57,014 nt of DNA, taken from the IMG/VR virus record IMGVR_UViG_3300025430_001249, positions 1 through 57,014 of that record; one strand, written 5' to 3'. The notes under the pieces were generated by a model, which made no database searches, was not told the DNA's origin, and saw only the letters and a program-made list of their open reading frames with translations. Below, piece after piece: positions 5,766 to 32,490 of this stretch (position 1 is the first letter of the stretch; every line of letters starts with the position of its first letter). Source of the stretch: a virus. A program made the position numbers and the translations under genes.

Positions 5766-5840
5766 GCCAATCTCCTTTAAGTCAGTTTTTCTTATTATGC
5801 GGACACATGGTATAAGTGGTCAAGATTAACATCAAATTAT

Positions 5841-5848: not shown

Positions 5849-5853
5849 ACTGT

Positions 5854-10579: not shown

Positions 10580-10930
10580 TTAGCCGTATTGTTTCATTTC
10601 CCTAATTGGGTCTTGCATTTTTTCAGCAATTTTGTTTTTAAGAATATAACGTTCGCCGTTGACATTTCTTACAGCTATTGCCCTGCGCCCAACTTCTTCA
10701 AGGCTATACTTGTGTTCAACAGTATACTTCTTGAAATCGTCTTCCATTTCCCATACACGTCGATGTATATCAGTTAATTCAACTAGTTCGTCCTTTATTA
10801 AATCAAAATTAAATTCTTTTAATTGCTCTGTGTAAAAATCCACTTCAGGTTGGTTATTTCCAAGTTTTTCGTACTTTAAGCATGCAATGCAATATCTATC
10901 TATAAGTTCAATAAGAGGGAATTTATACAT
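10580..10930 (-). CDS. Conserved helical protein linked to sugar-biosynthesis genes
   Basis: A 116-residue helical, charged protein (LIELIDRYCIACLKYEKL at the start, EEVGRRAIAVRNVNGER towards the end). Proteins of this look are common beside surface-polysaccharide genes in bacteria and phages, but I cannot name the function. The gene overlaps the 3' end of the C-methyltransferase gene by 8 bases, so the two are translationally linked. It is the last gene of the 25.6-10.6 kb minus-strand run. Confidence 0.6.
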   Translation of the reverse strand: MYKFPLIELIDRYCIACLKYEKLGNNQPEVDFYTEQLKEFNFDLIKDELVELTDIHRRVWEMEDDFKKYTVEHKYSLEEVGRRAIAVRNVNGERYILKNKIAEKMQDPIREMKQYG

Positions 10931-12134
10931 CTATTATCTCCACTGTTGGAAAGTATTTTAAAAAAACATCATGCGGTTGATTTCTAATTTTTTTGATTCG
11001 TGCCGATATCTCATCAAAAAAATTCCAAGCCAATGGCACAAACAATATTTTTGAGTTTATTGTGTAATTATTTAGAAATTCGGGAGGTCGTATAGGTATC
11101 ATTGTACCAGGAGTGTATCGATTGTGTTTAAGCTGATTATCATCTAATATTACATCCATTTTAAGATCGATATAGTTTAAAAGAGTATTACCTTTTGCTG
11201 CTGCACCGTATCCAACAATAGCATACCCTTGATTGTGATAGCTATCAACAGTGTTTTTAAGATTTTGCATATTCGTCTTGACATTCATTTCCCACACTTG
11301 GTAGGTCGCTAGTTGCGTTAGAGGTTTTTCCATTGCAATCTTATTGATAATGTTATACTTTTTCTTAACAGTTTTGCTAAAAACAAATACATAACTATTA
11401 CCATGTATTGGTACTTTTATAGCATCTATGAGATTTAAACCTGCTCTATTTGCTAGGCAATTCATACTATTGATATTGAAATAACTAATATGTTCATGAT
11501 ATATAGTATCAAACTCATTGTTAAGCACCATATCAGCTTGACTGGTTTGAATGAATAAAAATGTTTTATCATCCATTAATTGTTTACACGTTTCAAGGAA
11601 AGCAAGTGGATTATAATTGTGTCCAAGTACGTTTTGTCCACAAATAGCATCAAATCCTACATTCAATTTGTTAAGACTGCTACTTCCAAAAAAATCACAC
11701 ACAATTGAGTGATTTTTTGAACTTAGCGGATATATATTCTCCGCAGGATCGACCCCCCAGGTATCGTATCCAAAATCTTTAAAAGAATCAAGTTGAGAAC
11801 CATCATTGCATCCAATATCTAATATTCTGTTGTGTTTTTTAGATATTGTTTCGTCTACATATGCTGCAAACCAATCACTATAGGCTTTAAGCGTTGTACT
11901 AGTACCGCTCACATAGATATAATCCTTAAAAAGGATAGACGGATTCACTGTGTGTGTCAATTGTAAGTGGTAACAGTTATTACACAAGTTTACAGCAAGT
12001 GGATATCTATTTTCTTGCTGTGTTGGTGTGTATGGATAACTGTTGGCTAGTGGTTGTTCGCCTAAGTCTAACGCGCTGAGAAGATTATCGCTGCCGCAGG
12101 CTAAACAAACCATATTTTGTATAATATCACACAT
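10923..12134 (-). CDS. Sugar C-methyltransferase (NDP-hexose, three-domain type)
   Basis: A 403-residue SAM-dependent methyltransferase with the three-part layout of TylC3/NovU-type sugar C-methyltransferases. An N-terminal zinc-binding domain has CLACGSDN and CNNCYHLQL (four Cys). The Rossmann domain has motif I ILDIGCNDGSQLDSF at about residues 105-120 and the catalytic-region YHEHISYF. The C-terminal domain has VGYGAAAKGNTLLNY. The expected reaction is C-methylation of a keto-sugar nucleotide, giving a branched-chain sugar. It overlaps by 8 bases both the epimerase gene upstream and the small gene downstream, so the three form a translational unit for an unusual sugar on host or phage surface glycans. 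Confidence 0.87.
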   Translation of the reverse strand: MCDIIQNMVCLACGSDNLLSALDLGEQPLANSYPYTPTQQENRYPLAVNLCNNCYHLQLTHTVNPSILFKDYIYVSGTSTTLKAYSDWFAAYVDETISKKHNRILDIGCNDGSQLDSFKDFGYDTWGVDPAENIYPLSSKNHSIVCDFFGSSSLNKLNVGFDAICGQNVLGHNYNPLAFLETCKQLMDDKTFLFIQTSQADMVLNNEFDTIYHEHISYFNINSMNCLANRAGLNLIDAIKVPIHGNSYVFVFSKTVKKKYNIINKIAMEKPLTQLATYQVWEMNVKTNMQNLKNTVDSYHNQGYAIVGYGAAAKGNTLLNYIDLKMDVILDDNQLKHNRYTPGTMIPIRPPEFLNNYTINSKILFVPLAWNFFDEISARIKKIRNQPHDVFLKYFPTVEIIDV

Positions 12135-13035
12135 AGTTGATAAATTGATTCCTATTTGAAAATCTAGTCATTTTAGAATTATCTATTAACTCTAGTACAA
12201 TAGATTCTAATGTTTCTTTAAACTCAAATTTATATATTTTTTGAAATTTAGTAGTATCCATCTCAAAATTATAAGTGCCGCTGGTATCTGGTAACAAATG
12301 TATTGTAGATGATAATATATTAGCAACACTATTGCCAATATGTTCAACTGTATTACAAAAACTAGCTAAATTGTAAATTCCTGGTTTTGGATCTTTAATA
12401 ACAGCATCAACTGCTCTAATAATGTCATAGATTCCAAGTATTGGCCGCATTATTGTTAGATTATTCAAATTTATATTACCGCTATCGATAGATCGTTTGA
12501 CCATAGAATTGATCATTAGATCATCTCTAATATGAGGGCTCCATCCGTTAACAGTGCCAAATCTAAATCCAATAATCTTCTTTCCAGCGTGTATGAAATT
12601 CTGTGCATTAATATCGAGGACATATTTTGTTAAATCATAATTATTAGCAGGATTAAGTCTAAGTGTAGATTCTTCATTGTTTAATTTACTTAACGAGTTA
12701 TATACGCTACCTGTACTGGCATATATCAGTACTTGATCATTGGTCAGTTTGCCAATTAAATCAATAAAATTATTAACATTATTTTGCCAACTTGCTGATA
12801 ATTCTCCATTGCACATGTTTACAGAACTATGTCCTGCTAGCAATATTACAAATTCAAATTTTGATAACCATGTACTTGTTAGGTCTCGATAATCTATTGA
12901 AATATTAGACTCTAAACCATACCACCCTATATCAATAGATGTGATATCATATTCTGCAGACAACTCATACATAAGTCGTGATCCTATGTATCCATTGCCT
13001 CCTATTATTAATACAGATTTGCTGTCCATGTTCAT
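12127..13035 (-). CDS. NAD-dependent epimerase/dehydratase (extended SDR)
   Basis: A 302-residue extended short-chain dehydrogenase: GGNGYIGSRL near the N-terminus is the Rossmann dinucleotide-binding loop, YASTGSVYN is the substrate-Ser strand, and YDLTKY gives the catalytic YxxxK. It probably epimerises, reduces or dehydrates a nucleotide-activated sugar in the cytoplasm. Sequence beyond the Rossmann core is divergent, so the exact reaction is open. Overlap with the C-methyltransferase gene implies the same pathway. It is distinct from the GalE-like gene at 53.4 kb. Confidence 0.82.
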   Translation of the reverse strand: MNMDSKSVLIIGGNGYIGSRLMYELSAEYDITSIDIGWYGLESNISIDYRDLTSTWLSKFEFVILLAGHSSVNMCNGELSASWQNNVNNFIDLIGKLTNDQVLIYASTGSVYNSLSKLNNEESTLRLNPANNYDLTKYVLDINAQNFIHAGKKIIGFRFGTVNGWSPHIRDDLMINSMVKRSIDSGNINLNNLTIMRPILGIYDIIRAVDAVIKDPKPGIYNLASFCNTVEHIGNSVANILSSTIHLLPDTSGTYNFEMDTTKFQKIYKFEFKETLESIVLELIDNSKMTRFSNRNQFINYV

Positions 13036-13124
13036 TATTATTATTTCAACTTGTCATACAATGCAATTTTGCAATAAACAGCAATAATTAAAAATTTAAA
13101 TGATCGCTTAGATGTTTTGATTTA

Positions 13125-14471
13125 TCAAATACAACTATTAGTAGTTGTCGTCCATCGATTCAAATAATCTGTACCACGTAAGACAATATCTTCAACATTA
13201 GTAGCCATCGATAAAAAATCCTCGTGTTTATTGCGAACGTAATCTAAATCGTAATTGCGAATTGTAAAGTCGGTAGAAAAAATATTACTGTAATATAGAA
13301 AAGTTTTACCGACCGCACGATCAAGTAAGGATTGCGCGCTAACTGCGCTAAAAAGATTTATCTGTAAAAATTTTGCGTTACTTACACGAAATCTATTCCA
13401 TAATTGTTTAAAATTGTCTTCTGAACCAAAATCATCAAACATCATAGAAAGATTTTCTTCTAAAGAATTATTTATATATTTGAACATAGGTGCAAATTCA
13501 GATTTGCGAGCCATGTAATCAATAAGATTATTGCCATCCCATTCTTTCTTCATAGTTTCGATCCATTCTAACGACTTTGGATGGAAATCGTAAAACACAA
13601 AATCAACATTTGGCGATTCGTTTAATATTGCTAGATATTTAAATCCACTAGCTGGTCCCATATATGTGTCAATATTACACACAGGGATATCAAATTGATA
13701 TCGTTCGCTATTAAAAATCCAAATATCAGGTTTAAATGTTTTCTTTTTAAGCCATCTCACTTGGTTAGGATTGAGCGTAGGATCTATTGTATTATTAGTT
13801 ATACAATCATAGAAGTCCTCACTACGTGACTCTGGGTAGAGATATAATCTACAATCGCGCATAGCCTGTGAGAAGTTATCAATTTTTATTTCATTCAACA
13901 ATGCAGTTTTTATAATATTCCACCCTTGTTTTGTACGCTGCATTTCACTCAAACCAGTCTCACCTTTTATCCAATAAGGGGTATAATGATCATGGAAATT
14001 TTCTATTGATCTGCTGTAATTTGGCAACAACTCGGTTTTAGTTTCCCAATTGCCATAAATTGGGCTGCCAATATCCGCCCAAACGTTACGATTAATCAAT
14101 ATCATTTGATGGTGTAATTCTAACCAATCAGTCCCTTGCCAGTCAAGTGTAAATCCAACTAAGAAAAAATCTGGGTGCGCTGTTATATATTGATCCAGTA
14201 ATCCAAGTATATCATTGTCGTGGATATGATTACCAACAGATTGTATCAGCACTAGATCATACCCTTCCGACCCAGATAATGCTAAATCAATATTATCAAA
14301 AAATTTCACATCAGCATGTATAGTGTCAGCTAATCTATGAGTATAAAACCAAGTTATGCCAAACATGCGTTGAAATAATTCAGCATGACGCGATTTAACT
14401 TTAGCTTGGTCGACGACTGCAAATAATACTGTGCTACCTTGTAATGGAGTATCAGTGTATACTTTATTCAT
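13125..14471 (-). CDS. Large unknown protein of the radical-SAM/oxygenase island
   Basis: A 448-residue soluble protein. The N-terminal half has alternating hydrophobic strands and helices (TVLFAVVDQA, DLVLIQSVGN, FFLVGFTLDW) like a Rossmann-type domain. The second half contains IDTYMGPASGFKYLAIL and FVFYDFHPKSLEWI, reminiscent of a second nucleotide- or SAM-binding fold, but with no decisive motif. It is separated by 3 bases from the oxygenase gene upstream, so it is part of the same operon. I do not recognise the family; a transferase acting with the radical SAM enzymes is a guess. Confidence 0.55.
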   Translation of the reverse strand: MNKVYTDTPLQGSTVLFAVVDQAKVKSRHAELFQRMFGITWFYTHRLADTIHADVKFFDNIDLALSGSEGYDLVLIQSVGNHIHDNDILGLLDQYITAHPDFFLVGFTLDWQGTDWLELHHQMILINRNVWADIGSPIYGNWETKTELLPNYSRSIENFHDHYTPYWIKGETGLSEMQRTKQGWNIIKTALLNEIKIDNFSQAMRDCRLYLYPESRSEDFYDCITNNTIDPTLNPNQVRWLKKKTFKPDIWIFNSERYQFDIPVCNIDTYMGPASGFKYLAILNESPNVDFVFYDFHPKSLEWIETMKKEWDGNNLIDYMARKSEFAPMFKYINNSLEENLSMMFDDFGSEDNFKQLWNRFRVSNAKFLQINLFSAVSAQSLLDRAVGKTFLYYSNIFSTDFTIRNYDLDYVRNKHEDFLSMATNVEDIVLRGTDYLNRWTTTTNSCI

Positions 14472-14474
14472 CTT

Positions 14475-15137
14475 TTACAACCTATTAAAATTATTAGATG
14501 TGTGTCCATGTACTATGACATGATATCTATATTCATCACTGTTGTTTATTACCATATGCCGGCGGCCAACATCTAATACCATACCAACACCTGCGCGAAA
14601 CGGCACTATCCCCTTATTTTCAAAAACAAAATCGCAACCAGTTGGATTATTAATTGCAAAATTTAATGGACCAAACATACGACTTGCACCATCTGTATGC
14701 GGCATAATATAACCTTGAGGCGCTAATTTCATTATCCGAACTCGATCAAACATATCGTATGGTAACGATTTGAGAAAGTTTGACAAGATTGGTACTTGTT
14801 CACATATTTCAGTCCAATGATAATTAGCTTCTTCTAAAGTTGTAAAACCATATCTAGTGTAATGTTCAGTTTTATTAGGTGCTAGACCATGTAGAGTTAT
14901 ACTCTGCCATCCTTTATGACTATAACCGCCAATTACATCAACTGGCCTATGATTTACAAATAAATGATCAATCTGCTGACACTCGACCAGCATAGCAGCA
15001 GTGTCAACTTGAAAATCAATTTCATAATGACTACATTCACTGTCTTTCCAGCATTCGTATAAAGGCCTGGTAGCGGTATATGAATGCACAGAATGCAATT
15101 TATAAAAGTTTAAGAGATCTTCTGGGTATTTTTCCAT
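14475..15137 (-). CDS. 2-oxoglutarate/Fe(II) oxygenase, aspartyl/asparaginyl hydroxylase-like
   Basis: A 220-residue protein with the jelly-roll facial triad: His147-x-Asp149 in MPHTDGAS and distal His194 in GRRHMVINNS, followed by Arg204 (YRYHV) to bind the 2-oxoglutarate carboxylate. The spacing and the phrase HTDGASRMFGPLNFAIN fit the aspartyl/asparaginyl beta-hydroxylase branch. It should hydroxylate a peptide or small molecule using O2 and 2-oxoglutarate. An in-frame GTG at 15191 would add 18 residues; the ATG at 15137 is preferred because the domain starts there. It overlaps the radical SAM gene by 28 bases, suggesting sequential action on one substrate. Confidence 0.8.
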   Translation of the reverse strand: MEKYPEDLLNFYKLHSVHSYTATRPLYECWKDSECSHYEIDFQVDTAAMLVECQQIDHLFVNHRPVDVIGGYSHKGWQSITLHGLAPNKTEHYTRYGFTTLEEANYHWTEICEQVPILSNFLKSLPYDMFDRVRIMKLAPQGYIMPHTDGASRMFGPLNFAINNPTGCDFVFENKGIVPFRAGVGMVLDVGRRHMVINNSDEYRYHVIVHGHTSNNFNRL

Positions 15138-16102
15138 TTTGTCAACTTTATATCTGTAAAACAATGGCATTGATCTAATCCACATAACCATGGTTGATCA
15201 GGCCACTCTATTGTATCGTGTTTACTTATTTGACCCATTAGCGGGCCTTCTGTACAGTTTCCGCGTTTTATTACTCCGTGCTCATTTATAAACAAGCTTT
15301 CTAAACCCATGTTACACAACCAACCATTAAATTTGTTTTGTTTGTTTAGCACTAACGGGGCAATATGCGGTAAATCTTCTTCAGTGTCATCTTCAAGTAT
15401 AATAGTATTGTGTTGATTATATGGTCTAGCAGTAACTTTATTAGGTCTATGCTGCGTTGTAACTAGAGTGTCTAGCGATGATAATATTTGTTCTTGCTCA
15501 GGCGTGTAATCCATATCATATTTGACAGAATCCATTCCGTCGAAATAATTCAACAATCTAACCGGTTCAATAAAAACTGATCGAGAATTTTTCTTTTTAA
15601 AACTATCGTATAAATCTAAACAATGGTCCCAATGTTTTGGATCCATCATTATTCGAACAGCAACATGTGTTCTATTGTTTAGCCATTCTACCTTTTCAAA
15701 CCATTCCTGTCTTTCTTGAGGATCTACTACTACGCTAGGATGATAGCTAGCAGCAATATATGCCAATTTATCTACCACACGGTCCCACCAATCAGTTGTA
15801 CGCATGATATTAGAATTAACACCAATACTAACACGTCTATCTTCGCTGTATACTTTATCAACCATTTTGATAAAATATGGCCATACTGTTGGTTCGCCGC
15901 CGGATAGACTGATATGTGCATATGGATATTTGGCAAACACAGTATCTAAGAATTTATCACAATCTTCCCAGTCGTATGCACGGTTAACACCGCGATGCAC
16001 CGAATCTGGGCAATACCAACAATGAAAAGGACAAGATTGATTTACTATCCACGTTATTTCCATTGGACCAATATTTTTAATAGCTTTAAAAGGTTTGATC
16101 AT
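15110..16102 (-). CDS. Radical SAM enzyme
   Basis: A 330-residue radical SAM protein. The CX3CX2C motif that holds the 4Fe-4S cluster is at Cys24, Cys28 and Cys31 (SCPFHCWYC), followed by SLSGGEPTVWP, the SAM-binding GGE motif. The C-terminal ~80 residues carry further Cys (WLCNMG, RGNCTEG, WLCGLDQCHC) that could bind an auxiliary cluster. Such enzymes generate the 5'-deoxyadenosyl radical to modify peptides, sugars or lipids. The gene overlaps its upstream neighbour by ATGA and the oxygenase downstream by 28 bases, so all three should be made together. Confidence 0.88.
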   Translation of the reverse strand: MIKPFKAIKNIGPMEITWIVNQSCPFHCWYCPDSVHRGVNRAYDWEDCDKFLDTVFAKYPYAHISLSGGEPTVWPYFIKMVDKVYSEDRRVSIGVNSNIMRTTDWWDRVVDKLAYIAASYHPSVVVDPQERQEWFEKVEWLNNRTHVAVRIMMDPKHWDHCLDLYDSFKKKNSRSVFIEPVRLLNYFDGMDSVKYDMDYTPEQEQILSSLDTLVTTQHRPNKVTARPYNQHNTIILEDDTEEDLPHIAPLVLNKQNKFNGWLCNMGLESLFINEHGVIKRGNCTEGPLMGQISKHDTIEWPDQPWLCGLDQCHCFTDIKLTKWKNTQKIS

Positions 16103-17160
16103 TTATCTAATATCTTCACATCTATTACGGTATCATACTTACTCCAAACATTTTTATTCCAATTTTGCTGGTAATTATTATCAATTTCTCGAATATCAAT
16201 TTGTTGCAAGGTATCAGTTTCACAACCAACAATTATTGCTAGAGGAATAAATCCAAATGCCATCTGATCCGATCGTGTTATATCATACTTCTTATGAAGC
16301 CCGTGTGCTTTAAACCATTTATAAAATTTGATTTGATCTAAACCCATGATATTATCAACACGAAAATGCATATAAAATTCAGCTGCAAATCTTTTTTGGG
16401 GTCTAACAGCATTTCTATTTGCAACTTCTATATCATTGTCTACCCATGTACTCATCCAATGTTTACCAAGCGTATTATAGCCTAGATAAATGTATCCCCA
16501 TTTTAATTCAGATGTGAACAAAAAATAATCTTCGTGTTCAAGATTTTCGTGTAATCCAGTAGGTATGTAATCTACTAAACAACTACAAAGAACACTATCT
16601 AAATTGTCCCATCTCTTAAGTATAATTTCAAAATTATGTATCTGTTCGTTTAATCTCAGCATACGATTGTGTACGTCCATATTCTGAACTTCTCCAGGCC
16701 AACTATCAGGATTAGCTATAGTATGCGATAAAGTAGCTGTTGGATTATTTTTTCTATTCCACTCTGATCGAATAACAGCATTATGAAAATAGCCAAGTAA
16801 TAAAAGTTCTTCTAAACGATCGCCATATATTTCATATTCTTCGTGCAGATCATTTAACACTGTTGGATTTTCTCTAAGCCATTCAATATCGCGCAATTCA
16901 GTTAAAACTCTGTCATACTGCGAATTTATTCTCTCGATATTTTCTTTGAATTCGTTAAACTCATTTAAAATTTCCTGATTAGATGGTATCTTTCGATAAT
17001 TTTGAGTGATACTTAAATTATTTGAATAACTTTTAACAACTAACTCTAACCATCTATCAGCAACATCATGATTAAGGGGTCTAAAAAACATTCTACCTAT
17101 TTCGTTAGTTTGACTATTTTTGCAAGTTACTTGTATTAGCTTGTTATAATTTATAACCAT
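16099..17160 (-). CDS. Unknown partner of the radical SAM enzyme
   Basis: A 353-residue soluble, Asn- and Trp-rich protein with a helical, coiled-coil-like segment at about residues 60-200 and a mixed C-terminal part (LKWGYIYLGYNTLGKHW). No catalytic motif is recognised. Its stop codon overlaps the start of the radical SAM gene (ATGA), which usually marks partners in a complex or pathway. It may be the substrate-presenting or structural component; this is inference from coupling only. Confidence 0.55.
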   Translation of the reverse strand: MVINYNKLIQVTCKNSQTNEIGRMFFRPLNHDVADRWLELVVKSYSNNLSITQNYRKIPSNQEILNEFNEFKENIERINSQYDRVLTELRDIEWLRENPTVLNDLHEEYEIYGDRLEELLLLGYFHNAVIRSEWNRKNNPTATLSHTIANPDSWPGEVQNMDVHNRMLRLNEQIHNFEIILKRWDNLDSVLCSCLVDYIPTGLHENLEHEDYFLFTSELKWGYIYLGYNTLGKHWMSTWVDNDIEVANRNAVRPQKRFAAEFYMHFRVDNIMGLDQIKFYKWFKAHGLHKKYDITRSDQMAFGFIPLAIIVGCETDTLQQIDIREIDNNYQQNWNKNVWSKYDTVIDVKILDK

Positions 17161-17246
17161 TATTTTATCTCACATTAATTTTTAAAAAGTCTGTATCAGT
17201 TTGTACTTAATTACATTATGTTTTTCATATTAAATATACAATAAGA

Positions 17247-18479
17247 TTATTGCATCAATTTACTAGAATATTTTATCCCTCGCATAGTTTCTATTTTTTG
17301 CGTTACTTCAAATGTTTGAGGTAATAAATGAGACCAATCTTCGGCATTCATAAAATCTATAAGATTTCTAAATTTCTGTATAGCAATATTATCAGCATGG
17401 GTGTCTGCATATGCAAGTAACTTTTCTGTAATCCTATCCTTGTCAGATTTTGATAGTACCTTGGTACAATAATATTGGGGCCAATGTAAAATACCAGGAT
17501 GGAACACACCACTATGATGCTTATGACTTATCTTTTTATAGTTCTGTGATATTAGCCAATCAGCAAACTCTGGCAACCACTCAATGTTTAATGCCTGTAC
17601 AGTGCAAAGTATTTTTGGATCAATATTGCTAGGCGTATTGTCGTACCGTTGTAGATTTTTTTCTATAGTTTTCCAGTCAGCTGGATGTCGTATGAATGAG
17701 TTTATATCGTTGTATCCGTCTATACTGATCATAATTTCCACAAGTTTAAAATGAGACCATAATTCAATCATTTCTTCAGATAAAATTGTACCATTTGTGT
17801 GGTAACGTATTTCAATGTTTTTACTGTAACCGCGTGCAACCAATTGTTGTATTAAGGTCATATGTTCTTTAATTAACAGCGGCTCACCGCCGCCAAATAT
17901 TATATGACGTATATTACCACATGATTCGTAAAAACTTTCCCAAAATTCAGTATTTTTATACCAATCAAAGTCATCTATTGCAATATCAGCTTTAACTTTC
18001 CAATCATACTTAGCATCAGTTGTTAATTCGTTTGCCATAACCTTAGCATGATTAAGCCACTTGCTGCTATCTTGAGGTCGGCACATGATACATTGCAAAT
18101 TACAAGTATTTCCTAATCTAAAATCAACTGTTATAATATCAGTGTCAATGCTACCATCTGATTTTGTATTAGAAACAAGTTGATCTAGATATTCTTCTCC
18201 TAGTTTACGCTTCCAAAGATTGTTTTCATTTTCTCTGTGACTGCGTATACCAGCATCTTCTTCCTTATAACAATTTGTACAAGCTCGAAATTTTTTACCG
18301 TCAATCATAGATAGTCTAGCATTGCGAAAATGCTCACTATTCCATATCTCATCCCAACTCATCCTGTTTAAATTCAACTGTCTGCTATTATGAGCAACAC
18401 AGCATAGCAATGCTGAACCATCAGTGTAAGTAGCAGCATGTATCCACGGGAGAATACAAAAAGGAGAGTCAGACTTCAT
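17247..18479 (-). CDS. Twitch/SPASM-type radical SAM enzyme, copy 1
   Basis: A 410-residue radical SAM protein with an unusual N-terminal Cys-rich auxiliary domain (SDSPFCILPW, CC at 26-27, ACTNCY at 67-70) before the core. The core motif is NTCNLQCIMC (Cys126, Cys130, Cys133), followed by IIFGGGEPLL. Proteins of this layout are called twitch-domain radical SAM proteins and occur in phage and bacterial surface-modification loci; products are not established. The start at 18479 is preferred over longer in-frame starts because of GGAG 9 bases upstream and alignment with its paralogue. It overlaps the next paralogue by 11 bases. Confidence 0.85.
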   Translation of the reverse strand: MKSDSPFCILPWIHAATYTDGSALLCCVAHNSRQLNLNRMSWDEIWNSEHFRNARLSMIDGKKFRACTNCYKEEDAGIRSHRENENNLWKRKLGEEYLDQLVSNTKSDGSIDTDIITVDFRLGNTCNLQCIMCRPQDSSKWLNHAKVMANELTTDAKYDWKVKADIAIDDFDWYKNTEFWESFYESCGNIRHIIFGGGEPLLIKEHMTLIQQLVARGYSKNIEIRYHTNGTILSEEMIELWSHFKLVEIMISIDGYNDINSFIRHPADWKTIEKNLQRYDNTPSNIDPKILCTVQALNIEWLPEFADWLISQNYKKISHKHHSGVFHPGILHWPQYYCTKVLSKSDKDRITEKLLAYADTHADNIAIQKFRNLIDFMNAEDWSHLLPQTFEVTQKIETMRGIKYSSKLMQ

Positions 18480-19800: not shown

Positions 19801-19867
19801 AATAACTGCCTTATCTAAAAATTCTAGTTAAGTATAGTTTCTATGGACGTAAATTCATATAAAATAG

Positions 19868-20683
19868 CTAATAATATAACATAGGCTGTTCAATATAATC
19901 ATTATAATTGATATTATATTTAGTTGACAAATGTAATCGTTCATCTAGAGATAATGATAACCAGGGACTCCGTGGTGTTTTACAATTATCAGGTGGTTTA
20001 GGCCACATTAACCCAGGACGGTCTGCGCTAAGTATTTCTCCTATATTTAAATTCAAATCCATTGTATACGGTGTACAAATAAACTGATTTATTACAGAGT
20101 CTCCTGAAACATTTAAATTATGTAATTTAGCGTATGTTACCAATATTTCGCTTGTCCAAGTATTTGACGATTTTCGCAAAGTGTCTGGTGGATACAAACA
20201 TCTACGACATATGATATCAAACGTTGTGGAATCTGCCATACAAGATAGGTCGCAAAGATGGTACTCTTCGTCATTATATAAATCGTACCATGAGGCATAA
20301 TGTGTCGCCGGCGATAATGTAAAAACATCTCTAGTTTGAAAAGGAATAGTATCTGTTCGTTGATCAAAAACGGCATCATATGTTACAAACCGTTCTCTGA
20401 TGTTTTTTGCAGGCAAGAGAGAATAACTTAGATAATTGGCTCCTACACCAGTATTATAAAATCTAACATTTTTTGGATTACTAACAAATGCTACCAATTG
20501 TTTACCATAAAAATCGTTTTTTATGGTATTTTCTTCAATACTTGGCGGGTCCCAAGTTGCGAAATACCAATCTATCTCATCGGCTAGTTGCTCATAAACT
20601 TTAAAAATAAACTGTTTTGTATAATTCCACGTACTAACATGCCCTTTTATAAAAACAGCAATGTGATTATATTTTTTTGTCAT
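19868..20683 (-). CDS. Unknown protein, possibly glycosyltransferase-like
   Basis: A 271-residue soluble protein. It starts with a strand (HIAVFIKGHVSTW), contains DWYFATWDPP and YDAVFDQRTDT, a layout that recalls glycan-modifying GT-A-like proteins in which an RxD replaces DxD, but the similarity is weak. Several His/Cys in the centre (YHLCDLSCM, CRRCLYPP) could bind metal. It lies within the minus-strand island between radical SAM and acetyltransferase genes. Family not recognised with certainty. Confidence 0.5.
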   Translation of the reverse strand: MTKKYNHIAVFIKGHVSTWNYTKQFIFKVYEQLADEIDWYFATWDPPSIEENTIKNDFYGKQLVAFVSNPKNVRFYNTGVGANYLSYSLLPAKNIRERFVTYDAVFDQRTDTIPFQTRDVFTLSPATHYASWYDLYNDEEYHLCDLSCMADSTTFDIICRRCLYPPDTLRKSSNTWTSEILVTYAKLHNLNVSGDSVINQFICTPYTMDLNLNIGEILSADRPGLMWPKPPDNCKTPRSPWLSLSLDERLHLSTKYNINYNDYIEQPMLYY

Positions 20684-20686
20684 AAT

Positions 20687-20803
20687 TTACCAACTACTAC
20701 CGTAGTTACTATAGAATTTTGCCGCCTGCATATAACGTTTTTTGTTAGAATCAAATAACACAATATCTAGATCATTAGCAATGCAACAATATCTACAAAT
20801 CAT
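20687..20803 (-). pseudogene. Remnant of a third twitch radical SAM gene
   Basis: A 38-codon frame starts with ATGA coupling to the acetyltransferase gene and ends 3 bases before the next ATG. Its residues CRYCCIAN and FDSNKKRYMQAAKF align with FCCIAS and VDSDKKRYLAGK of the 443-residue radical SAM protein (residues about 33-57), and the DNA is also alike across the DSNKKRY codons. Everything else, including the cluster-binding core, is missing. It looks like what is left after deletion of a duplicated gene; translation of the stub is possible but probably without function. Confidence 0.6.
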
Positions 20804-21408
20804 GTATCTGGCCACATTATTTTATAATCTAGGTCAAGTTGTTGATATATTACCCATTGTGGTACATTTTTTATCAAAATTTTATTTGGCAACATTGTAA
20901 AATTCTTATAAAAATCTGGGCGAGAATGTCCAACGCCTTTTTCTGCTTTTGAGTTGTACTTACCGGATCTAGTTATAATTTGCATCAATTTAAAATTATA
21001 ATCATTAAATGTTAATGCAAATACTTTTGCATTGTGTTCAATTGCCCATTGTTGTTGGGTCTTTAACAAATAGTTAGCCTGAAGATATTTTGCTCTATAC
21101 GTTGGAAGAACCCAAGCTCGAACACCGCCAATAACTATATCTCTATTAACTTCAAATTTGTAACAACCACTTACAGCAACCAATTTATTATCATCATATA
21201 AACATGAAAACATGCCATTTGTTGAAACGAATCTATCCGTGCGTAATAATATGTACATTAAAGATGCTGTATTATTTTCCCAATTTGAGACGGCCATATT
21301 TTCAGCAGCATTTTTAATGCTCTCAACTTCTGCTAATTTACAAAATTCAAAAATATCACATAGAATTGAAGATTCTATGTGATCAGAACTAAAACAAACT
21401 ACCTCCAT
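20800..21408 (-). CDS. GNAT-like acetyltransferase
   Basis: A 202-residue protein with the GNAT pattern in its second half: a strand LVAVSGCYKF, then VRAWVLPTYRAKYL (pyrophosphate-binding turn region) followed by a helix LLKTQQQWAIEHN, a strand AKVFALTFN and a helix. The classical Q/RxxGxG/A loop is degenerate (YRAKYL), so acetyl-CoA binding is probable but not certain. It overlaps the upstream oxygenase gene by 10 bases. An N-acyl transfer to an amino sugar or lysine would fit the island. Confidence 0.6.
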   Translation of the reverse strand: MEVVCFSSDHIESSILCDIFEFCKLAEVESIKNAAENMAVSNWENNTASLMYILLRTDRFVSTNGMFSCLYDDNKLVAVSGCYKFEVNRDIVIGGVRAWVLPTYRAKYLQANYLLKTQQQWAIEHNAKVFALTFNDYNFKLMQIITRSGKYNSKAEKGVGHSRPDFYKNFTMLPNKILIKNVPQWVIYQQLDLDYKIMWPDT

Positions 21409-22040
21409 TTGCTACTAAAATCGTCTTTATATAGCGCAAATTCTGAATATTTTTTCATTGAATTACTAATTAGGTCCGTCAGTTGATTATAATTTGGAAT
21501 ACCGTATATACCTAATATAATCTTTTCTGTCGTTGTTGGCATATTTGATCCATGCTTTATCGCCGTTGAATTCATAATCCACCAGTTACTGGTGGTAGGA
21601 TAAATTGGAAATATTTTAATATTGTCATTTTGAAAATAAAATGTAGTATCAAGGTCTTCATTAACAACCCAATATCGCATGGCAGATGGGTAAGATGTGT
21701 ATAGTCCAGTCACAAAATCTATATGAGGATCTACAGTTTTAATTTGTTTGAAAAAATAAATACGTATCAACTTTTCGTAAGGAAGTTCTCTAAACAATGA
21801 TACAGAGGTTGGGTATAATTCTTTAAACACTTCATCCCATTTTCCGTTGCTGAAAGCAAGCCATTGATCCCAATAGTTTATATTAGATGTTATTTTTCCT
21901 TGAATTCCGTTTGAATAATTGTTTTTTGTAACCTCTGGTAAAGTCGTTGCGTATGTTGTAAAGTTGTTTGTAAAGTTTAGAAGTTCTAAATTTGGTATAT
22001 CAAGCGGGAGATAATAAATGTTGTCTATATCATATTGCAT
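21399..22040 (-). CDS. 2OG-Fe(II) oxygenase-like protein
   Basis: A 213-residue protein with an HxD pair in VDPHIDFVTG and a distal His in STAIKHGSNMP, followed by a hydrophobic strand (KIILGIYGIP), matching the jelly-roll 2OG oxygenase layout. The Arg/Lys that grips 2-oxoglutarate is less clear than in the neighbours (TTTEK). Start 22040 (ATG) is preferred to TTG 22052. It overlaps the oxygenase gene upstream by 16 bases. Three such genes in a row (21.4-23.0 kb) suggest iterative hydroxylation. Confidence 0.65.
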   Translation of the reverse strand: MQYDIDNIYYLPLDIPNLELLNFTNNFTTYATTLPEVTKNNYSNGIQGKITSNINYWDQWLAFSNGKWDEVFKELYPTSVSLFRELPYEKLIRIYFFKQIKTVDPHIDFVTGLYTSYPSAMRYWVVNEDLDTTFYFQNDNIKIFPIYPTTSNWWIMNSTAIKHGSNMPTTTEKIILGIYGIPNYNQLTDLISNSMKKYSEFALYKDDFSSKWR

Positions 22041-22531
22041 GTTTTGAACCAATTGTATAAAAAATTATAATCATATTTTTTTATAAAAAATCCTATACTC
22101 AAAATATATCTAGTATTTGAAGATGACTTATTTTGAACACCATGTTTTTGTTCAACATTAATTAAAAACGGTACTAAATGATTTCCGTTATAATTAGGTT
22201 GAACAATGTTACCATCAACATCTATCATTTCAAAGATATGGTCGTCATCTGGTAAACTAATTAATGTGTTGATAGCGCAAAATCTAATAGCATCAATGTG
22301 CGTTTTATAAACTGTGTTTGGGGAGTTTTTTAGAATTTGAAATATAATTTCTTTTGGCTCGCTTTCAGGCAGCGGAATAATACTTTTTACGTAATCTTTT
22401 AATTCATTAGTTGGAAGTATATATCTAGCATCGTATGGAGATGTTTTAAATTCAGTGCTATCAAGATTTTGGATCTCAGCAAATTGATACAAATCTAATT
22501 TAGTTTTCATTTTTTTGAATAAATTATCCAT
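22025..22531 (-). CDS. 2OG-Fe(II) oxygenase-like protein
   Basis: A 168-residue minimal jelly-roll protein: YKTHIDAIRFCAIN gives the HxD motif, NVEQKHGVQN the distal His, and TRYILSIGF the Arg expected to bind 2-oxoglutarate. The spacing fits phage 2OG-Fe(II) oxygenases that hydroxylate proteins or nucleobases. No signal peptide. It overlaps the upstream oxygenase gene by 8 bases. Which substrate each of the tandem enzymes uses cannot be seen. Confidence 0.72.
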   Translation of the reverse strand: MDNLFKKMKTKLDLYQFAEIQNLDSTEFKTSPYDARYILPTNELKDYVKSIIPLPESEPKEIIFQILKNSPNTVYKTHIDAIRFCAINTLISLPDDDHIFEMIDVDGNIVQPNYNGNHLVPFLINVEQKHGVQNKSSSNTRYILSIGFFIKKYDYNFLYNWFKTCNMI

Positions 22532-23033
22532 AGATAAATTCTCCTATCTCAAATAGGCTTACTAATCTATCATACGAATGATATTGCATGTCATCATGCC
22601 TCTTATGCCATCCCATAGTAACAATATAACGATTTTTAGTTGTCTCTAAATTTACAACTCTATGCAACACTTGACCATTAAGAATAATTGCTTTACCTCG
22701 ACTATAATCAAACCTTTTAATACCAGATTCATCAGAAATTTCTAAGTAAATGTTAGTATTATCTGGAGATATTTGGCAGATCACAACCGTTTGTCGGTCT
22801 ACATCTTTATGCCACATATAATCTTCTAATGGATAATGTTTATGAAATGTAGCTATATCAAACGGAATCTTAAATTGTGCTAATAAATCATCTCGTAGTT
22901 CTGTAGGAACATAACGGCTGTGAAAATACCGTGTTCTTTCATTTTTTGGCCATTTGTCATCAGAAAGTGATTCTGCAAAATGATACCATTTTTCTGCGTC
23001 AATTTTGAGAGGTATATCTGTTACATATGTCAA
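22524..23033 (-). CDS. 2OG-Fe(II) oxygenase-like protein
   Basis: A 169-residue protein with DYMWHKDVDRQTVVICQI (HxD), NGQVLHRVVN (distal His) and KNRYIVTMGW (Arg), the full 2OG-Fe(II) facial triad and co-substrate residue. It begins 2 bases after the stop of the desaturase gene, indicating one operon with lipid-modifying enzymes. Hydroxylation of a peptide, sugar or fatty-acyl substrate is possible; the family alone does not decide. Confidence 0.75.
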   Translation of the reverse strand: MTYVTDIPLKIDAEKWYHFAESLSDDKWPKNERTRYFHSRYVPTELRDDLLAQFKIPFDIATFHKHYPLEDYMWHKDVDRQTVVICQISPDNTNIYLEISDESGIKRFDYSRGKAIILNGQVLHRVVNLETTKNRYIVTMGWHKRHDDMQYHSYDRLVSLFEIGEFIYG

Positions 23034-23035
23034 TT

Positions 23036-23776
23036 CTACACCTTTATCATCCGTATTATTTGGGCACTAATATCTAATTCCCACCATTTATTGCGTAAAT
23101 TCCACAGGTTTGGTTTTGCATGGTGGTTATTATGCCACCCTTCTCCCCACAATATCAAACTTATAAACCAGTTATTTGTAGATTTATCGTTTGTCTCAAA
23201 TGTTCTATATCCATACATATGCGTAAAAAATGTAAATAAATTTAATACCCACCCTGTTAATGCAACGGGTATTATCCATAAGAACATTAATGTTCTCATA
23301 TCTATTGCACCGATTATAACTACAAACAAAAACAATATAAGATTATAATAATCATCAATGTACCTGTGATACCTATTAGTTAACAATTCTTTGATAGAAA
23401 ATAAATTGATGTTTGTATAATTCAACAGGTGCGGTGCAAATATTCTAATACTGGGGGCATGCGGATCGTTTATACTATCTGCGTTCTTATGATGCTGTCT
23501 ATGCACTGCAACCCAACCAATAGGACTTCCCCTACCAGCTAATACACCTAAAATAGTACCAACCCAACGAATGATAAAATTTGTTTTGAAACTTCTGTGA
23601 CTATAATATCGATGATAAAAAATTGAAATACCAACACAACTCAAGAGGAAATATCCAACTGCTATTTCAAGTATAGCCTGCATATCAAGTTTAAAAACAA
23701 TTAAACCTGCTATAGCAGCCAATGTAGTAGAAACCTGCACAATCGACAGTGATATAGGAGAACTATTAAGTATCAT
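23036..23776 (-). CDS. Fatty acid (acyl-CoA delta-9 type) desaturase, copy 1
   Basis: A 246-residue integral membrane diiron enzyme with the three His boxes of the acyl-CoA/acyl-lipid desaturase family: HRYYSH (55-60), HRQHH (92-96) and HNNHH near residue 217. Four hydrophobic spans surround them. It should introduce a cis double bond into a fatty acyl chain in the host inner membrane, using O2 and host electron carriers. Length is short compared with bacterial DesA-type enzymes (~300-400). AGGA precedes the ATG and TATAAATA lies 66 bases upstream. Confidence 0.88.
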   Translation of the reverse strand: MILNSSPISLSIVQVSTTLAAIAGLIVFKLDMQAILEIAVGYFLLSCVGISIFYHRYYSHRSFKTNFIIRWVGTILGVLAGRGSPIGWVAVHRQHHKNADSINDPHAPSIRIFAPHLLNYTNINLFSIKELLTNRYHRYIDDYYNLILFLFVVIIGAIDMRTLMFLWIIPVALTGWVLNLFTFFTHMYGYRTFETNDKSTNNWFISLILWGEGWHNNHHAKPNLWNLRNKWWELDISAQIIRMIKV

Positions 23777-23841
23777 ACATTTTTCCTAATACGGTTAAAT
23801 CAAATTTATAATTTATACTAACGATAAACTGTTGTTTTGTC

Positions 23842-23849
23842 TATTTATA
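23842..23849 (-). promoter_or_regulatory. T4-type late promoter element TATAAATA
   Basis: An exact TATAAATA on the minus strand, 66 bases before the first desaturase gene, in the otherwise empty 23777-24021 gap. It could drive the rest of the minus-strand island. Confidence 0.45.
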
Positions 23850-24021
23850 TGCTTGCACTGCATCTATTACCGTATATTACACCATTGAATAACCATTACT
23901 ACCACTTAGTTAGATTAATTGATCTCATACAATATGAATTATTGTACAAATATTATCAGATAATCAAATATAAAATAAATTTTTGATGCAATATATAATA
24001 TTTTAATAATTAATAAGAAAG

Positions 24022-24774
24022 TTATCTATTCATTAATATATTTCTAATAATAAATGCTCCCCAATCAAATTCCCACCATTTTTTACCAAATTGGTAATCT
24101 GTTGGATTAGCATGATGGTTATTATGCCACCCTTCACCAAAGGTAAGATATGCTGTAACCCAAAGATTTCTACTGTGATCTGTAGTAATATTAGATACAT
24201 AACCAAATTTATGGTTGAGATAGTTAGAAATAGTGCTGGCCCAAATAGCTAAAGTCATAGGAACTATGACACAATAAGCTCCTATATTAACATCAATAAG
24301 TAGTGCAATACTAAACCAAATTAGTAATAATAAGAAATAATAATTATGCAAAAACAAATGCATTTTATCAGATAATATATCTCGAACACGCCTAGGATTG
24401 ATCTTATACTCATAATTAGCTACCAGTATCTTTAGTCCAGATAAGTGAGGTGTATGAGGATCACCAACCTTGTCGCTAAATCTATGATGGCTTCTATGTA
24501 CAGCAGCCCACCCTAATGGACTTCCAGTTCCAGCTAAACATCCAACCCAAAATAACGGAAACTTTAACCAAGTCCGCTTTAATTTAAATGATCTGTGTGT
24601 TAAATATCTATGATACCCAATGCTAATGCCAAAACAAGCTATTAGCATATAAACAAAAAGACTTAACATAGCTAGGTTAAAAGAAAAATCAAATAGTAAT
24701 ATTAAAATTGTTGCACAAGACATAACCAATTGAATGTAAGGCAAATACGCAGTGTTTGATCTAAAAATATTCAT
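24022..24774 (-). CDS. Fatty acid desaturase, copy 2
   Basis: A 250-residue paralogue of the 23.0-kb desaturase, with HRYLTH (55-60), HRSHH (93-97) and HNNHH near the C-terminus and the shared phrases GxGSPxGWxAVHR and GEGWHNNHHA. The two proteins align end to end but differ in the central loop, so they may act at different positions or on different lipids. It has its own late promoter (TATAAATA) and an AGGG site, separate from copy 1. Confidence 0.88.
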   Translation of the reverse strand: MNIFRSNTAYLPYIQLVMSCATILILLFDFSFNLAMLSLFVYMLIACFGISIGYHRYLTHRSFKLKRTWLKFPLFWVGCLAGTGSPLGWAAVHRSHHRFSDKVGDPHTPHLSGLKILVANYEYKINPRRVRDILSDKMHLFLHNYYFLLLLIWFSIALLIDVNIGAYCVIVPMTLAIWASTISNYLNHKFGYVSNITTDHSRNLWVTAYLTFGEGWHNNHHANPTDYQFGKKWWEFDWGAFIIRNILMNR

Positions 24775-24790
24775 AAATAATCCCTTATGA

Positions 24791-24798
24791 TATTTATA
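24791..24798 (-). promoter_or_regulatory. T4-type late promoter element TATAAATA
   Basis: An exact TATAAATA on the minus strand, 16 bases before the second desaturase gene, leaving a short leader that contains AGGG. Confidence 0.6.
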
Positions 24799-24909
24799 AT
24801 AGATACAAGTATATCTACAGAATATATTATTTGAGAAAGTAATTGCATAAAATATCTAGAATGGTAGAATACCTCGTTTTATGCATATATAGCGAAACAC
24901 CGTAGTCTA

Positions 24910-25629
24910 TTAACCGTGATAATACCAACGGTTAGTAGACATGAGATAATTTATCCTCGCTAACACCTCGTCTAAATTTAAAAAATATTTGTATAGATCA
25001 GTGTGTTGATCTGAGGATGTTACTGTATAATCAAACCCAAGATCTTCTTGGCCTGCTATTAATTTATCAAAATCAATATATCGGCCGCGGTTGTTTGCAA
25101 CAAGGTCTCTTTGAATTTTGTCAGTCATATTAAGATGATTAAAATAATAATCAATGTCGTGCATTTTAGCATGTATTGGATTAGATTCATGCTCCCCGTT
25201 AAAATTTAAGTTATAGTTAGTTAATAAACCACTTAATAGTTGTTCTGTTTGATTTTTACGAATTGTACAGAGATAATATCTATCATCTATACATGACCAA
25301 ATATTTTTGTTAATAACCATATCACCATACCATACAGTAACAATACTCGGAGTTATATCTTTATATTGGTTGAAAACAGTCTGTCTTTCCAATGATTCTA
25401 TGCTTTTTACTGAATGTAACTCATTTTTATTGCGAGTTTTCCAGTATGTACGGTTTTTATATTGTGTTTCAACCAATAATCGATTAGAATATGGGATTGT
25501 ATCATAAATTATTTCACAGGAAAAACAGTTGAAGAATTCTCCAAAGTTAAAATATCCAGCTGCTGAATGTAAATCAGCAAGCAATTTAGTTCCAGATCTA
25601 TCCCAACCAAAAATAACTCGATTTTCCAT
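24910..25629 (-). CDS. Sulfotransferase-like P-loop protein
   Basis: A 239-residue protein opening with VIFGWDRSGTKLLADLH, which resembles the RSGT phosphosulfate-binding loop of PAPS-dependent sulfotransferases, followed by FGEFFN as in bacterial members. A TIRKNQTEQLLSG segment could supply the Arg/Ser of the 3'-phosphate site. The rest is divergent. Predicted reaction: sulfate transfer from PAPS to a sugar or lipid hydroxyl. AGGAG precedes the ATG and overlaps the start codon of the divergent ATP-grasp gene, so expression of the two may interfere. Confidence 0.6.
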   Translation of the reverse strand: MENRVIFGWDRSGTKLLADLHSAAGYFNFGEFFNCFSCEIIYDTIPYSNRLLVETQYKNRTYWKTRNKNELHSVKSIESLERQTVFNQYKDITPSIVTVWYGDMVINKNIWSCIDDRYYLCTIRKNQTEQLLSGLLTNYNLNFNGEHESNPIHAKMHDIDYYFNHLNMTDKIQRDLVANNRGRYIDFDKLIAGQEDLGFDYTVTSSDQHTDLYKYFLNLDEVLARINYLMSTNRWYYHG

Positions 25630-25644
25630 ATAGCAGAATCTCCT

Positions 25645-26907
25645 ATGAAAGTTTTGTGTCTTTTTAATAATTTCACTTTAACGCATCTAATAGATCATTT
25701 AGCAGTATCAAATGATGCATTATTTGATATTACAGTAGCTCCAAAAAAATATCAACCAATAAAAAATAACATTAACTGTATTCCAATGAATCTGATTTAT
25801 CAAAATGGGCATGCTTTACCGCCTATGCATATTGTAGCTAAATATGCCTTAGACAACTGTGATCAGTATGATTTAATAATAGCGGTTAGTCCATATTTAC
25901 AGAACCATATACCGTTGTTGTCCTTAAAATCCGTTCCTATCTTGTGTCCAAATAATGTATGTTCAAAATTAGAAAGTGACAAGATATTTACAAAATCTTT
26001 ATTGCAATTAATTGATATTCCTACACCAAATTACAAAATATTGCAAAGCGATCAAATTTTAGAAGTTTTTGATAAAACTCCACTACCTATTGTTTTTAAA
26101 TTGAGCAAAGCTGATTATAGAATAACATCATTTGGTACACAAGTATTCACTGATCGAGAATACTCAGAAACTATCAATATTTTGATAAGCATGTCTAACG
26201 ATGAGCAGGTCTTCTATATGGAAGATTTTGTAGCTGGGAAAGAAGTATCAGTGCATTTTCTTTGTAACGGTACAGATTGGTGTTATCTTGGTGTAGCACG
26301 TGATTATAAAAAAAAGCAAGATAGCGACATTGGTATAAACACAGGTAGTACAGGATGTTATACTCATGTCAACTACTTTACTAACGATATAAGAGATACT
26401 GTATTTACATACATGAATAAAATTCTAAAGAAGTTGAATTCGATGGGAATATTTTATAAAGGAATTATGTATTTAGGTATAATTATTGGACACAATTTGG
26501 TTCCGCAAATCTTAGAGATAAACACAAGACCTGGATATCCAGAATTTGCTGCTATTATTAATCATTTGGATAGCAAATTATTGTTAGAAAATTTTATTCA
26601 TGCTGCGAAAGGTGAGGAAATGATTCCAATGACGCAAAATGATAAGGTTTCTGTTGTAGTAACAATTTATCATAAAAACTACAATTTGAAAAATTCAATT
26701 AATTCTCCAATATATCCTACTCTATCAACCGTTCCGTCAAATATCAAAATCATATATTCTGAACTAGAACTTTATAATAATGTATATGCAATAATTATAG
26801 CAGAAGCCAGTACGAGGTGCGACGCAGCTGATCGTATATATAGTTGGCTTGATACACAGAATCTTGGAGATTATGTAGTAAGACACGACATAGGTTATTT
26901 GGAATAA
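25645..26907 (+). CDS. PurD-like ATP-grasp ligase (divergent)
   Basis: A 420-residue protein whose residues about 110-420 follow phosphoribosylamine-glycine ligase (PurD): PIVFKLSKAD, then EDFVAGKEVSVHFL, ARDYKKKQDSDIGINTGSTG (PurD has DHKR-DxGxNTGGMG), GIMYLGIII, ILEINTRPGYPE and a C-terminal domain ending RHDIGYLE. The N-terminal ~100 residues that normally bind the phosphoribosylamine are atypical. It should form an amide using ATP through an acyl-phosphate. Its setting beside a sulfotransferase and radical SAM genes, away from other purine genes, suggests a different amine/acid pair. It has no ribosome binding site on this strand. Confidence 0.7.
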   Translation: MKVLCLFNNFTLTHLIDHLAVSNDALFDITVAPKKYQPIKNNINCIPMNLIYQNGHALPPMHIVAKYALDNCDQYDLIIAVSPYLQNHIPLLSLKSVPILCPNNVCSKLESDKIFTKSLLQLIDIPTPNYKILQSDQILEVFDKTPLPIVFKLSKADYRITSFGTQVFTDREYSETINILISMSNDEQVFYMEDFVAGKEVSVHFLCNGTDWCYLGVARDYKKKQDSDIGINTGSTGCYTHVNYFTNDIRDTVFTYMNKILKKLNSMGIFYKGIMYLGIIIGHNLVPQILEINTRPGYPEFAAIINHLDSKLLLENFIHAAKGEEMIPMTQNDKVSVVVTIYHKNYNLKNSINSPIYPTLSTVPSNIKIIYSELELYNNVYAIIIAEASTRCDAADRIYSWLDTQNLGDYVVRHDIGYLE

Positions 26908-27215
26908 AATTAATTAATAGGCGTTATTTTTTATAAGTGCTGTGTATATTTAGATAAATCAAATAATTTAAACCTAACCCTTATTGTCAGTCTAAGTTTT
27001 AGACTTATTTAAACAGATGCTTAAATTCTTAGTTGACGAAAATAAGACCTCTTATTGAAAAATTTATCCTTTAGATTCTAAATTGTTGATACATGCAAGT
27101 TAATAATTAGGTTTATTCAAAAATGTTAGTTTTCTTTTAGATTAGTATTCTCAATAATTTACTGATATATTTTAAGAAGCGTTAAACGCAATGTATTTTT
27201 GTTTTGTAATAACAT
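26908..27215. other. AT-rich intergenic gap, no gene seen
   Basis: A 308-base gap between the 3' end of the ATP-grasp gene and the 3' end of the convergent oxygenase gene. It holds a 7-bp hairpin with a 3-base loop near 26990-27007 that may be a weak terminator and a GCGTT/AACGC inverted repeat near 27180. No ORF, tRNA or promoter element is convincing. Confidence 0.5.
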
Positions 27216-27773
27216 TTATTCAATTAAAATATTCTCAAAATCTATACCTGTATCTAGAATCCATCTAACAGCCAGACATAAACGCGGAATAGTGTTTGGG
27301 TTTTCAACGCTATGAATTATATCAGATCTAATCAAAGTTGGGCAGTTAACTTCAATTTTATCTAAACATTTTAATTCTGTTGGATTTAATATTTTGGTTG
27401 CGCCAAAACCTTCATTAGTGACCCAGTGCTGCATAACCGCATTTGTTTCATCCCACCAATAAGTAATCGAGTTGCGGCAGCCACTTATTGGAATATTAAG
27501 TGTTGCTAGACAACGCTTAATAGCTCCCCCGTCTATGTGCATATTAAATTTTCCGTTCGGAGGTGTGTTATACACGCGATAAAACATTATAGGAAATTTA
27601 CTGTGATTTATTAACCAGTTATGTAACTCAGGGCAGAATCTCTCAATTTCTAAAAATGACATATCATAATAACACCACACTGATTGGTCGACAAACTTAT
27701 CCTCTAAAAATGTAAAAAGATCTTTTTGAATTTTTTCAAAATTAGGTATTGATACTGGTTTATAATATTGCAT
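27216..27773 (-). CDS. 2OG-Fe(II) oxygenase-like protein
   Basis: A 185-residue protein with NMHIDGGAIKRC (HxD), IRSDIIHSVEN (distal His) and RLCLAVRW (Arg), the facial triad and 2-oxoglutarate-binding residue of a jelly-roll oxygenase. A Trp/Tyr-rich strand (SITYWWDETN) fits the substrate face. It stands apart from the three tandem oxygenase genes. GATAAATA ends 7 bases before the ATG and there is no ribosome binding site, suggesting a near-leaderless late mRNA. Confidence 0.72.
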   Translation of the reverse strand: MQYYKPVSIPNFEKIQKDLFTFLEDKFVDQSVWCYYDMSFLEIERFCPELHNWLINHSKFPIMFYRVYNTPPNGKFNMHIDGGAIKRCLATLNIPISGCRNSITYWWDETNAVMQHWVTNEGFGATKILNPTELKCLDKIEVNCPTLIRSDIIHSVENPNTIPRLCLAVRWILDTGIDFENILIE

Positions 27774-30668: not shown

Positions 30669-30729
30669 TTTTTCCTCCTTGGGAATTATACAAGTATTTA
30701 TTGCGTCGCTAAAACAAGCGAGGGATAAC

Positions 30730-30737
30730 CATAAATA
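30730..30737 (+). promoter_or_regulatory. Late-promoter-like CATAAATA, 7 bases before ATG
   Basis: CATAAATA precedes the ATG at 30745 by 7 bases, with no ribosome binding site between them. T4-like geometry gives a 2-base leader. Confidence 0.45.
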
Positions 30738-30744
30738 CACCATC

Positions 30745-31761: not shown

Positions 31762-31778
31762 CATAAGGAGAAGTTTAA

Positions 31779-32489: not shown

Positions 32490-32490
32490 T

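Follow-up and report, generated by a model that had tools for sequence, protein, structure and literature searches.

The closest described relatives of the locus studied here are gene islands of aquatic phages. The jumbo cyanophages P-SSM2 and S-SSM6a carry lipopolysaccharide (LPS)-type clusters and sugar/amino-acid modification clusters, which have been interpreted as serving surface decoration or a secondary metabolite (PMC7824862). In pelagimyophages, the consulted parts of the published description report a variable host recognition cluster, flanked by VrlC and gp14 genes, that contains tail fibres, GT8-type glycosyltransferases and radical-SAM cassettes; they also list an Asp/Asn beta-hydroxylase as a core pelagimyophage protein and attribute a desaturase and a 2-oxoglutarate (2OG) protein to the fonsimyophages (PMC7029224). 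Aquatic T4-like phages have many radical-SAM genes, with 12 in one published genome (PMC5332604). The literature on phage radical-SAM genes that we located gives no specific function for them, and a literature search on the combination of desaturase and radical SAM returned nothing. Here, we analysed a viral DNA stretch of 57,014 nucleotides (IMG/VR record IMGVR_UViG_3300025430_001249, positions 1 to 57,014; hereafter the window), focusing on a 17-kb gene island located at positions 10580-27773. This island consists of three separately conserved viral cassettes, sugar-modifying, radical-SAM/hydroxylase and fatty-acid-desaturase/oxygenase, each of which recurs in other environmental phages. The DNA polymerase encoded in the window is closest to those of jumbo phages, e.g., relatives of PA5oct and Sinorhizobium phage Phosso (42-52% identity for the best matches listed), so that the window probably represents part of a large phage genome.

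The listing of open reading frames (ORFs) shows nineteen large, close-packed ORFs in the island, which we named B to T, A being a convergent neighbour at position 9086. All are on the minus strand except the ORF at 25645-26907. The original prediction, made from the sequence alone, had described about nineteen genes nearly all on one strand, as found here, and overlaps of 4-28 bases, which is correct for most overlaps (e.g., 10 bp for L/M, 28 bp for M/N and 8 bp for N/O, from coordinates) and wrong for two larger ones. Neighbours are spaced by -8 (B/C and C/D), +89 (D/E), +3 (E/F), -82 (F/G), -4 (G/H), +86 (H/I) and -71 bp (I/J); the overlaps of 82 and 71 bp may result from start-codon choice. 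Most of the predicted enzymes were recovered: the C-methyltransferase and the epimerase by Pfam matches, three radical SAM proteins (G by Pfam, I and J by the N_Twi_rSAM model) and two desaturases by FA_desaturase matches above cut-off. Among the five proteins predicted to be 2OG oxygenases, F is assigned through PF05118, whereas M, N, O and T fall below the Pfam cut-off, yet conserve the HxD...H motif across 13-40 relatives each. The GNAT (L) and the sulfotransferase-like protein (R) match no Pfam family, and the ATP-grasp protein (S) has a PurD-like match that stays under the cut-off (130 vs 288 bits) and is encoded on the opposite strand. Catalytic residues, whose failure had been named as a possible refutation, hold: G, I and J have the CxxxCxxC motif, D has YxxxK, and each of the five 2OG proteins has HxD...H, accompanied by the distal Arg in F, N, O and T. 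The proposal that these genes are functionally organised, and not scattered cargo, is supported.

Cassette 2 (13125-19800) is the novel part of the island. Its six genes, all on the minus strand, encode a core protein of 448 aa (E, 13125-14471), an Asp/Asn beta-hydroxylase-like 2OG oxygenase (F, 14475-15191; PF05118 score 35.4 vs a cut-off of 22.6), a radical SAM protein with invariant C-terminal cysteines (G, 15110-16102), a phage core protein (H, 16099-17160) and two N-twitch radical SAM proteins of the NF033640 family, I (17247-18539; 367.6 bits) and J (18469-19800; 328.5 bits), for a cut-off of 170. For the SPASM/twitch domain PF13186 (cut-off 21.5), I scores above the threshold (34.0) and J just under it (20.3). 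A search with E retrieved three near-identical contigs together with a diverged one (L005), which has the gene order H-G-F-E and, directly upstream, J and I. Alignment-based scans then led to 48 loci for E and 78 for H, whose genes were labelled with family models built with length limits, and to a dereplicated set of 46 loci fetched via E or H, in which H was required and F was not selected for. H, F and E are found together in 37 of these 46 loci, F is located directly before E or fused to it in 36, and an N-twitch radical SAM protein is additionally present in 29. The order J-I-H-(G)-F-E is widespread in diverged contigs, indicating that the gene set of the island is more than a chance assembly. 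Natural fusions (F+E, H+F, H+G and E+G+G) occur in phage contigs, and the pairwise distances of H, F and E are correlated (r=0.87-0.92, a value reached in 0 of 2000 permutations). In F, the ligands H165, D167 and H212 and the 2OG-binding Arg R222 are invariant in 27 sequences, and, among solved structures, its closest relatives are those of beta-hydroxylases and of proline cis-4-hydroxylase. This unit of H, F and E with N-twitch radical SAM proteins, with its fusions, its invariant residues and the confident model available for H, makes the function testable.

We detected no match for E, H and F among 50,697 phage records. With Pfam, 28 members of E and 42 of H yielded scattered chance matches only, and sequence searches of solved structures with E and H gave nothing convincing. 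In BFVD, every match of H is a phage protein that has not been characterised. A single-sequence search of IMG/VR with J returned no match, and among isolate phages J is matched only weakly, by proteins of three Vibrio jumbo phages. In Vibrio phage K566 (L006, 14962-19364), radical-SAM genes are in a row with unannotated neighbours, a region that was compared with H, F and E by family labels only. The gene K (19868-20683, minus strand), located next to cassette 2, encodes a 271 aa protein with no assigned family, whose relatives are found near cassette 2 in L005 and L066. Relatives (family u40) of a putative Fe/Mn superoxide dismutase, a look-alike encoded at 5839-6384 of the window, also recur in cassette 2 loci.

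A scan of 84,980 prokaryotic genomes with E identified four loci, all in metagenome-assembled genomes (MAGs) of Bdellovibrionota, which contain F, a fusion of E and H, the arrangement F-E-H, or F and E with N-twitch radical SAM proteins, alongside ordinary bacterial genes. The pattern scan of the same type with H found no relative in prokaryotic genomes, yet H is located beside E in two of these MAGs; pattern scans therefore under-count. The MAG contigs L125 (8297-11447), L126 (3246-12267) and L128 (6266-12909), with relatives of F, E and H that are in some cases fused, correspond to lineages of predatory bacteria bearing a phage-like tailoring unit.

Cassette 3 (20800-24774) is encoded on the minus strand and includes two fatty-acid desaturases, P (23036-23776) and Q (24022-24774), with PF00487 scores of 66.9 and 60 bits (cut-off 29.7) and histidine boxes that are conserved in both proteins and in their relatives. 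They are accompanied by three 2OG-oxygenase-like proteins with conserved residues, M (21399-22052; H110/D112/H167), N (22025-22531; H78/D80/H130/R141) and O (22524-23033; H75/D77/H124/R135), and by L (20800-21408), a protein of a 'GNAT-like' family that is found beside desaturases in 31 of 51 dereplicated loci. O also has a weak match to HalD, below cut-off, and retains the Asp of a hydroxylase. No Pfam acetyltransferase match was detected for L and three of its relatives, although a remote homologue could have been missed. A fourth 2OG-oxygenase-like protein, T (27216-27773, minus strand; H79/D81/H154/R164 conserved), belongs to a family present in 31 of the 51 desaturase loci. These loci came from a desaturase scan and were compared with 47 C-methyltransferase loci of similar length; since desaturase and control contigs share environments, this control is imperfect. 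The GNAT-like family and the Tox family were each found in 31 of the 51 desaturase loci, the PP-loop family PP74 in 23 and the Mox family in 22, against 0/47 in the control for each of them (Fisher p down to 2.5e-12); absolute counts are approximate, as the family models were trained on the same locus pool, and the diverged 2OG families overlap, so that the individual Mox, Nox, Oox and Tox counts are less certain than their sum. Many phage desaturases are thus embedded in a recurrent oxygenase/ATPase cassette and are not lone lipid genes. Between Q and T, the gene R (24910-25629, minus strand) encodes a protein with no assigned family, whose proposed resemblance to sulfotransferases lacks Pfam support and for which no relative was found among the loci fetched up to that comparison, and the ATP-grasp gene S (25645-26907, plus strand) has one relative, inside the desaturase locus L133.

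Cassette 1 comprises the minus-strand genes at 10580-13035 plus the convergent gene A (9086-10534, plus strand), which appears glycosyltransferase-like by eye, has no Pfam or PHROG match, and has relatives that recur beside cassettes 1 and 2. B (10580-10930) is weakly DUF6165-like (16.2 bits vs a cut-off of 27), C (10923-12134) is a sugar C-methyltransferase with Methyltransf_13/23/14 domains and CxxC motifs, and D (12127-13035) is an NAD-dependent epimerase/dehydratase. Relatives of C reach 62-63% identity in other phage contigs. In two loci, L287 and L208, relatives of B adjoin the C-methyltransferase (65-66% identity), relatives of D are also present (54-56%), and the trio of epimerase, C-methyltransferase and DUF6165 proteins adjoins N-twitch radical-SAM clusters (54-66% identity). 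A scan with the C-methyltransferase led to 80 loci, of which 47 were retained after dereplication; an epimerase is present in 41 of them and a DUF6165 protein in five.

The three cassettes combine in various ways. Within 10 kb of the H loci, a C-methyltransferase is present in 1/46 cases and a desaturase in 3/46, and neither H nor E occurs in the 51 desaturase loci. Considering whole contigs, a desaturase is also encoded by 10 of 22 contigs with the H module and a relative of the C-methyltransferase by two of them (27-30% identity). The 335-kb phage of L287/L288 carries cassette 1 beside five N-twitch radical SAM genes, downstream of fibre-like and GT8-like genes. We conclude that the cassettes are modular parts, which large aquatic phages combine, and form no fixed pathway, and that phages probably mix and match them.

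We suggest, with a probability of roughly 0.4, that the combined output of the cassettes serves to decorate the infected cell surface, tailoring a glycan, peptide or lipid there, with their pile-up in the window acting as a tailoring island. Surface tailoring was adopted as the likeliest function; similar published islands have been read as changing the host surface against rival phages, or as making a secondary metabolite (PMC7824862, and the consulted parts of PMC7029224). Furthermore, radical-SAM, H-F-E and GT8-like genes are often located downstream of fibre-like genes in the loci of relatives. Cassette 1 would make and transfer a nucleotide sugar that is epimerised and C-methylated. Cassette 2 would operate as one unit, performing radical modification, hydroxylation and perhaps methylation of a peptide, protein or amino-acid substrate that the cyclophilin-like protein H would bind, and cassette 3 could desaturate and hydroxylate acyl chains or an acylated product. 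Together, the cassettes may decorate LPS, a lipid or a surface protein of the infected cell, which would alter receptor identity against rival phages.

Several observations weigh against this proposal. Cassettes 2 and 3 are usually apart, and the nearest radical SAM protein follows the distances of H, F and E only loosely (r=0.43-0.47), from which we infer that radical-SAM partners are exchanged more freely. The AlphaFold model of H (predicted local distance difference test, pLDDT, 92.6) suggests a cyclophilin-like barrel with a helical insert (residues 58-189), but this resemblance comes only from VIA-align, in which the first 16 rows are mostly cyclophilins (Z 8.0-9.9, 126-148 residues aligned; next row Z 6.5) and also include four mitoribosome chains and one PSI-NDH chain of unchecked identity. 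Foldseek found no significant match of the H model in the PDB, perhaps missing the cyclophilins as the predicted barrel is split by the insert. From their conservation, H106, E110, H175 and E178 of the insert, including the invariant H106 and H175, could be considered a candidate metal site. The C-terminal half of E resembles S-adenosylmethionine (SAM) methyltransferase folds (Z 7-8) in a low-confidence model (mean pLDDT 54), so this domain is perhaps methyltransferase-like.

A doubtful, yet serious, alternative is that cassette 2 modifies proteins of the phage itself, e.g., u1, a repeat-bearing glycosyltransferase-like protein, or the adjacent fibres, at W/Y/D/P-rich repeats, via radical-SAM, Asp-hydroxylase and cyclophilin-like action. 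The u1 gene is often located immediately before the radical SAM gene J and next to fibre-like genes, repeat-bearing u1 proteins are present in 30 H/E loci and in zero desaturase or C-methyltransferase loci, and the family of F includes protein-Asp hydroxylases. However, u1 is absent from the window, it is located within 10 kb in only 20 of the 46 H/E loci, and some u1 proteins lack repeats. It is unlikely that H presents Pro/Asp-rich repeats of such a phage protein to the paired N-twitch radical SAM proteins and the Asp hydroxylase, giving a cross-linked, hydroxylated protein, which would correspond to an undescribed phage post-translational modification system. Examples of u1 proteins with long W/Y/D/P-rich repeats ahead of a glycosyltransferase-like end domain are encoded in L119 (14298-18443) and L053 (7003-8628).

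The original prediction had interpreted the nineteen genes as one linear pathway leading to a single glycolipid or peptide. The single strand, the tight spacing and the intact catalytic residues fit this view, as does the 335-kb phage, which also has cassettes 1 and 3 and radical-SAM genes. In this phage, however, some 245 kb separate the desaturase cassette from cassette 1, and H was not detected. A check of conserved neighbourhoods in other phages showed that the genes move independently, as three blocks that are separate in most loci, and a single pathway is unlikely because the cassettes usually travel apart. We consider it improbable that the island produces a secreted or intracellular small molecule, of nucleoside, amino-acid or lipopeptide type, directed against rival phages or competing bacteria. 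PP-loop ATPases, a carbamoyltransferase, radical SAM and 2OG enzymes recur in related loci and the jumbo cyanophage cluster was read as a secondary-metabolite system (PMC7824862), but many relatives sit beside fibres and the island contains no genes for non-ribosomal peptide synthetases or polyketide synthases. A precursor of a ribosomally synthesised and post-translationally modified peptide (RiPP), for which a check had been proposed, has no convincing candidate among the short ORFs in the gaps of the island; a RiPP-type substrate could possibly be encoded at a distance, or be a larger protein. A hot spot of unrelated auxiliary genes without common function is quite improbable: R has no relative and S only one in the loci searched, and S and L are weakly assigned, but conserved order, fusions, co-divergence and the strong partner enrichment around desaturases largely refute this explanation for cassettes 1-3, and it may still hold for K, R and S. 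Finally, DNA hypermodification, suggested by the ability of phage 2OG and radical-SAM enzymes to modify DNA bases, is scarcely credible, as F is a PF05118 protein and not of the TET/JBP type, the desaturases are membrane-type and the minus-strand island gave no match to a nucleotide-directed enzyme.

Other features of the window include an apparent phage-encoded sigma factor of the primary (RpoD-like) type (6514-7968), an ATP-dependent DNA ligase apparently split by an intein-like insertion (40515-43253), its halves lying on either side of an endonuclease-like ORF (41405-42304), and a DNA polymerase (54628-56859) in which the GDTDS motif is followed by an apparent intein before the end of the ORF. 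Collagen-like repeat proteins are encoded at 30628-32489, 3 kb from the island; the region 30628-34161 corresponds to two such proteins with GPTGPTG repeats, followed by a peptidase that appears S53/sedolisin-like by eye, and contains candidate fibre genes near the island.

Among known enzymes, those of ornithine-lipid modification, OlsB and OlsC, combine an acyltransferase with a PF05118-type hydroxylase. Unlike this pair, the GNAT-like protein L has no match in Pfam, and the travelling partners of F are H and E, not the desaturases. I and J are members of the N_Twi_rSAM subfamily (NF033640), found here in the same phage operon as H, F and E; we know of no substrate for this subfamily. The islands of P-SSM2 and S-SSM6a are likewise large and contain epimerases, several 2OG enzymes and methyltransferases, along with glycosyltransferases and carbamoyltransferases, but the text of that study does not mention radical SAM proteins, desaturases or cyclophilins (PMC7824862). 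Likewise, the H-F-E unit, its fusions and the desaturase/2OG/GNAT-like cassette are not described in the consulted parts of the account of the pelagimyophage cluster (PMC7029224). The statement that no such phage pathway is known was nevertheless partly wrong, since the islands published for the cyanophages (PMC7824862) and, in the parts consulted, for the pelagimyophages (PMC7029224) are similar to this one.

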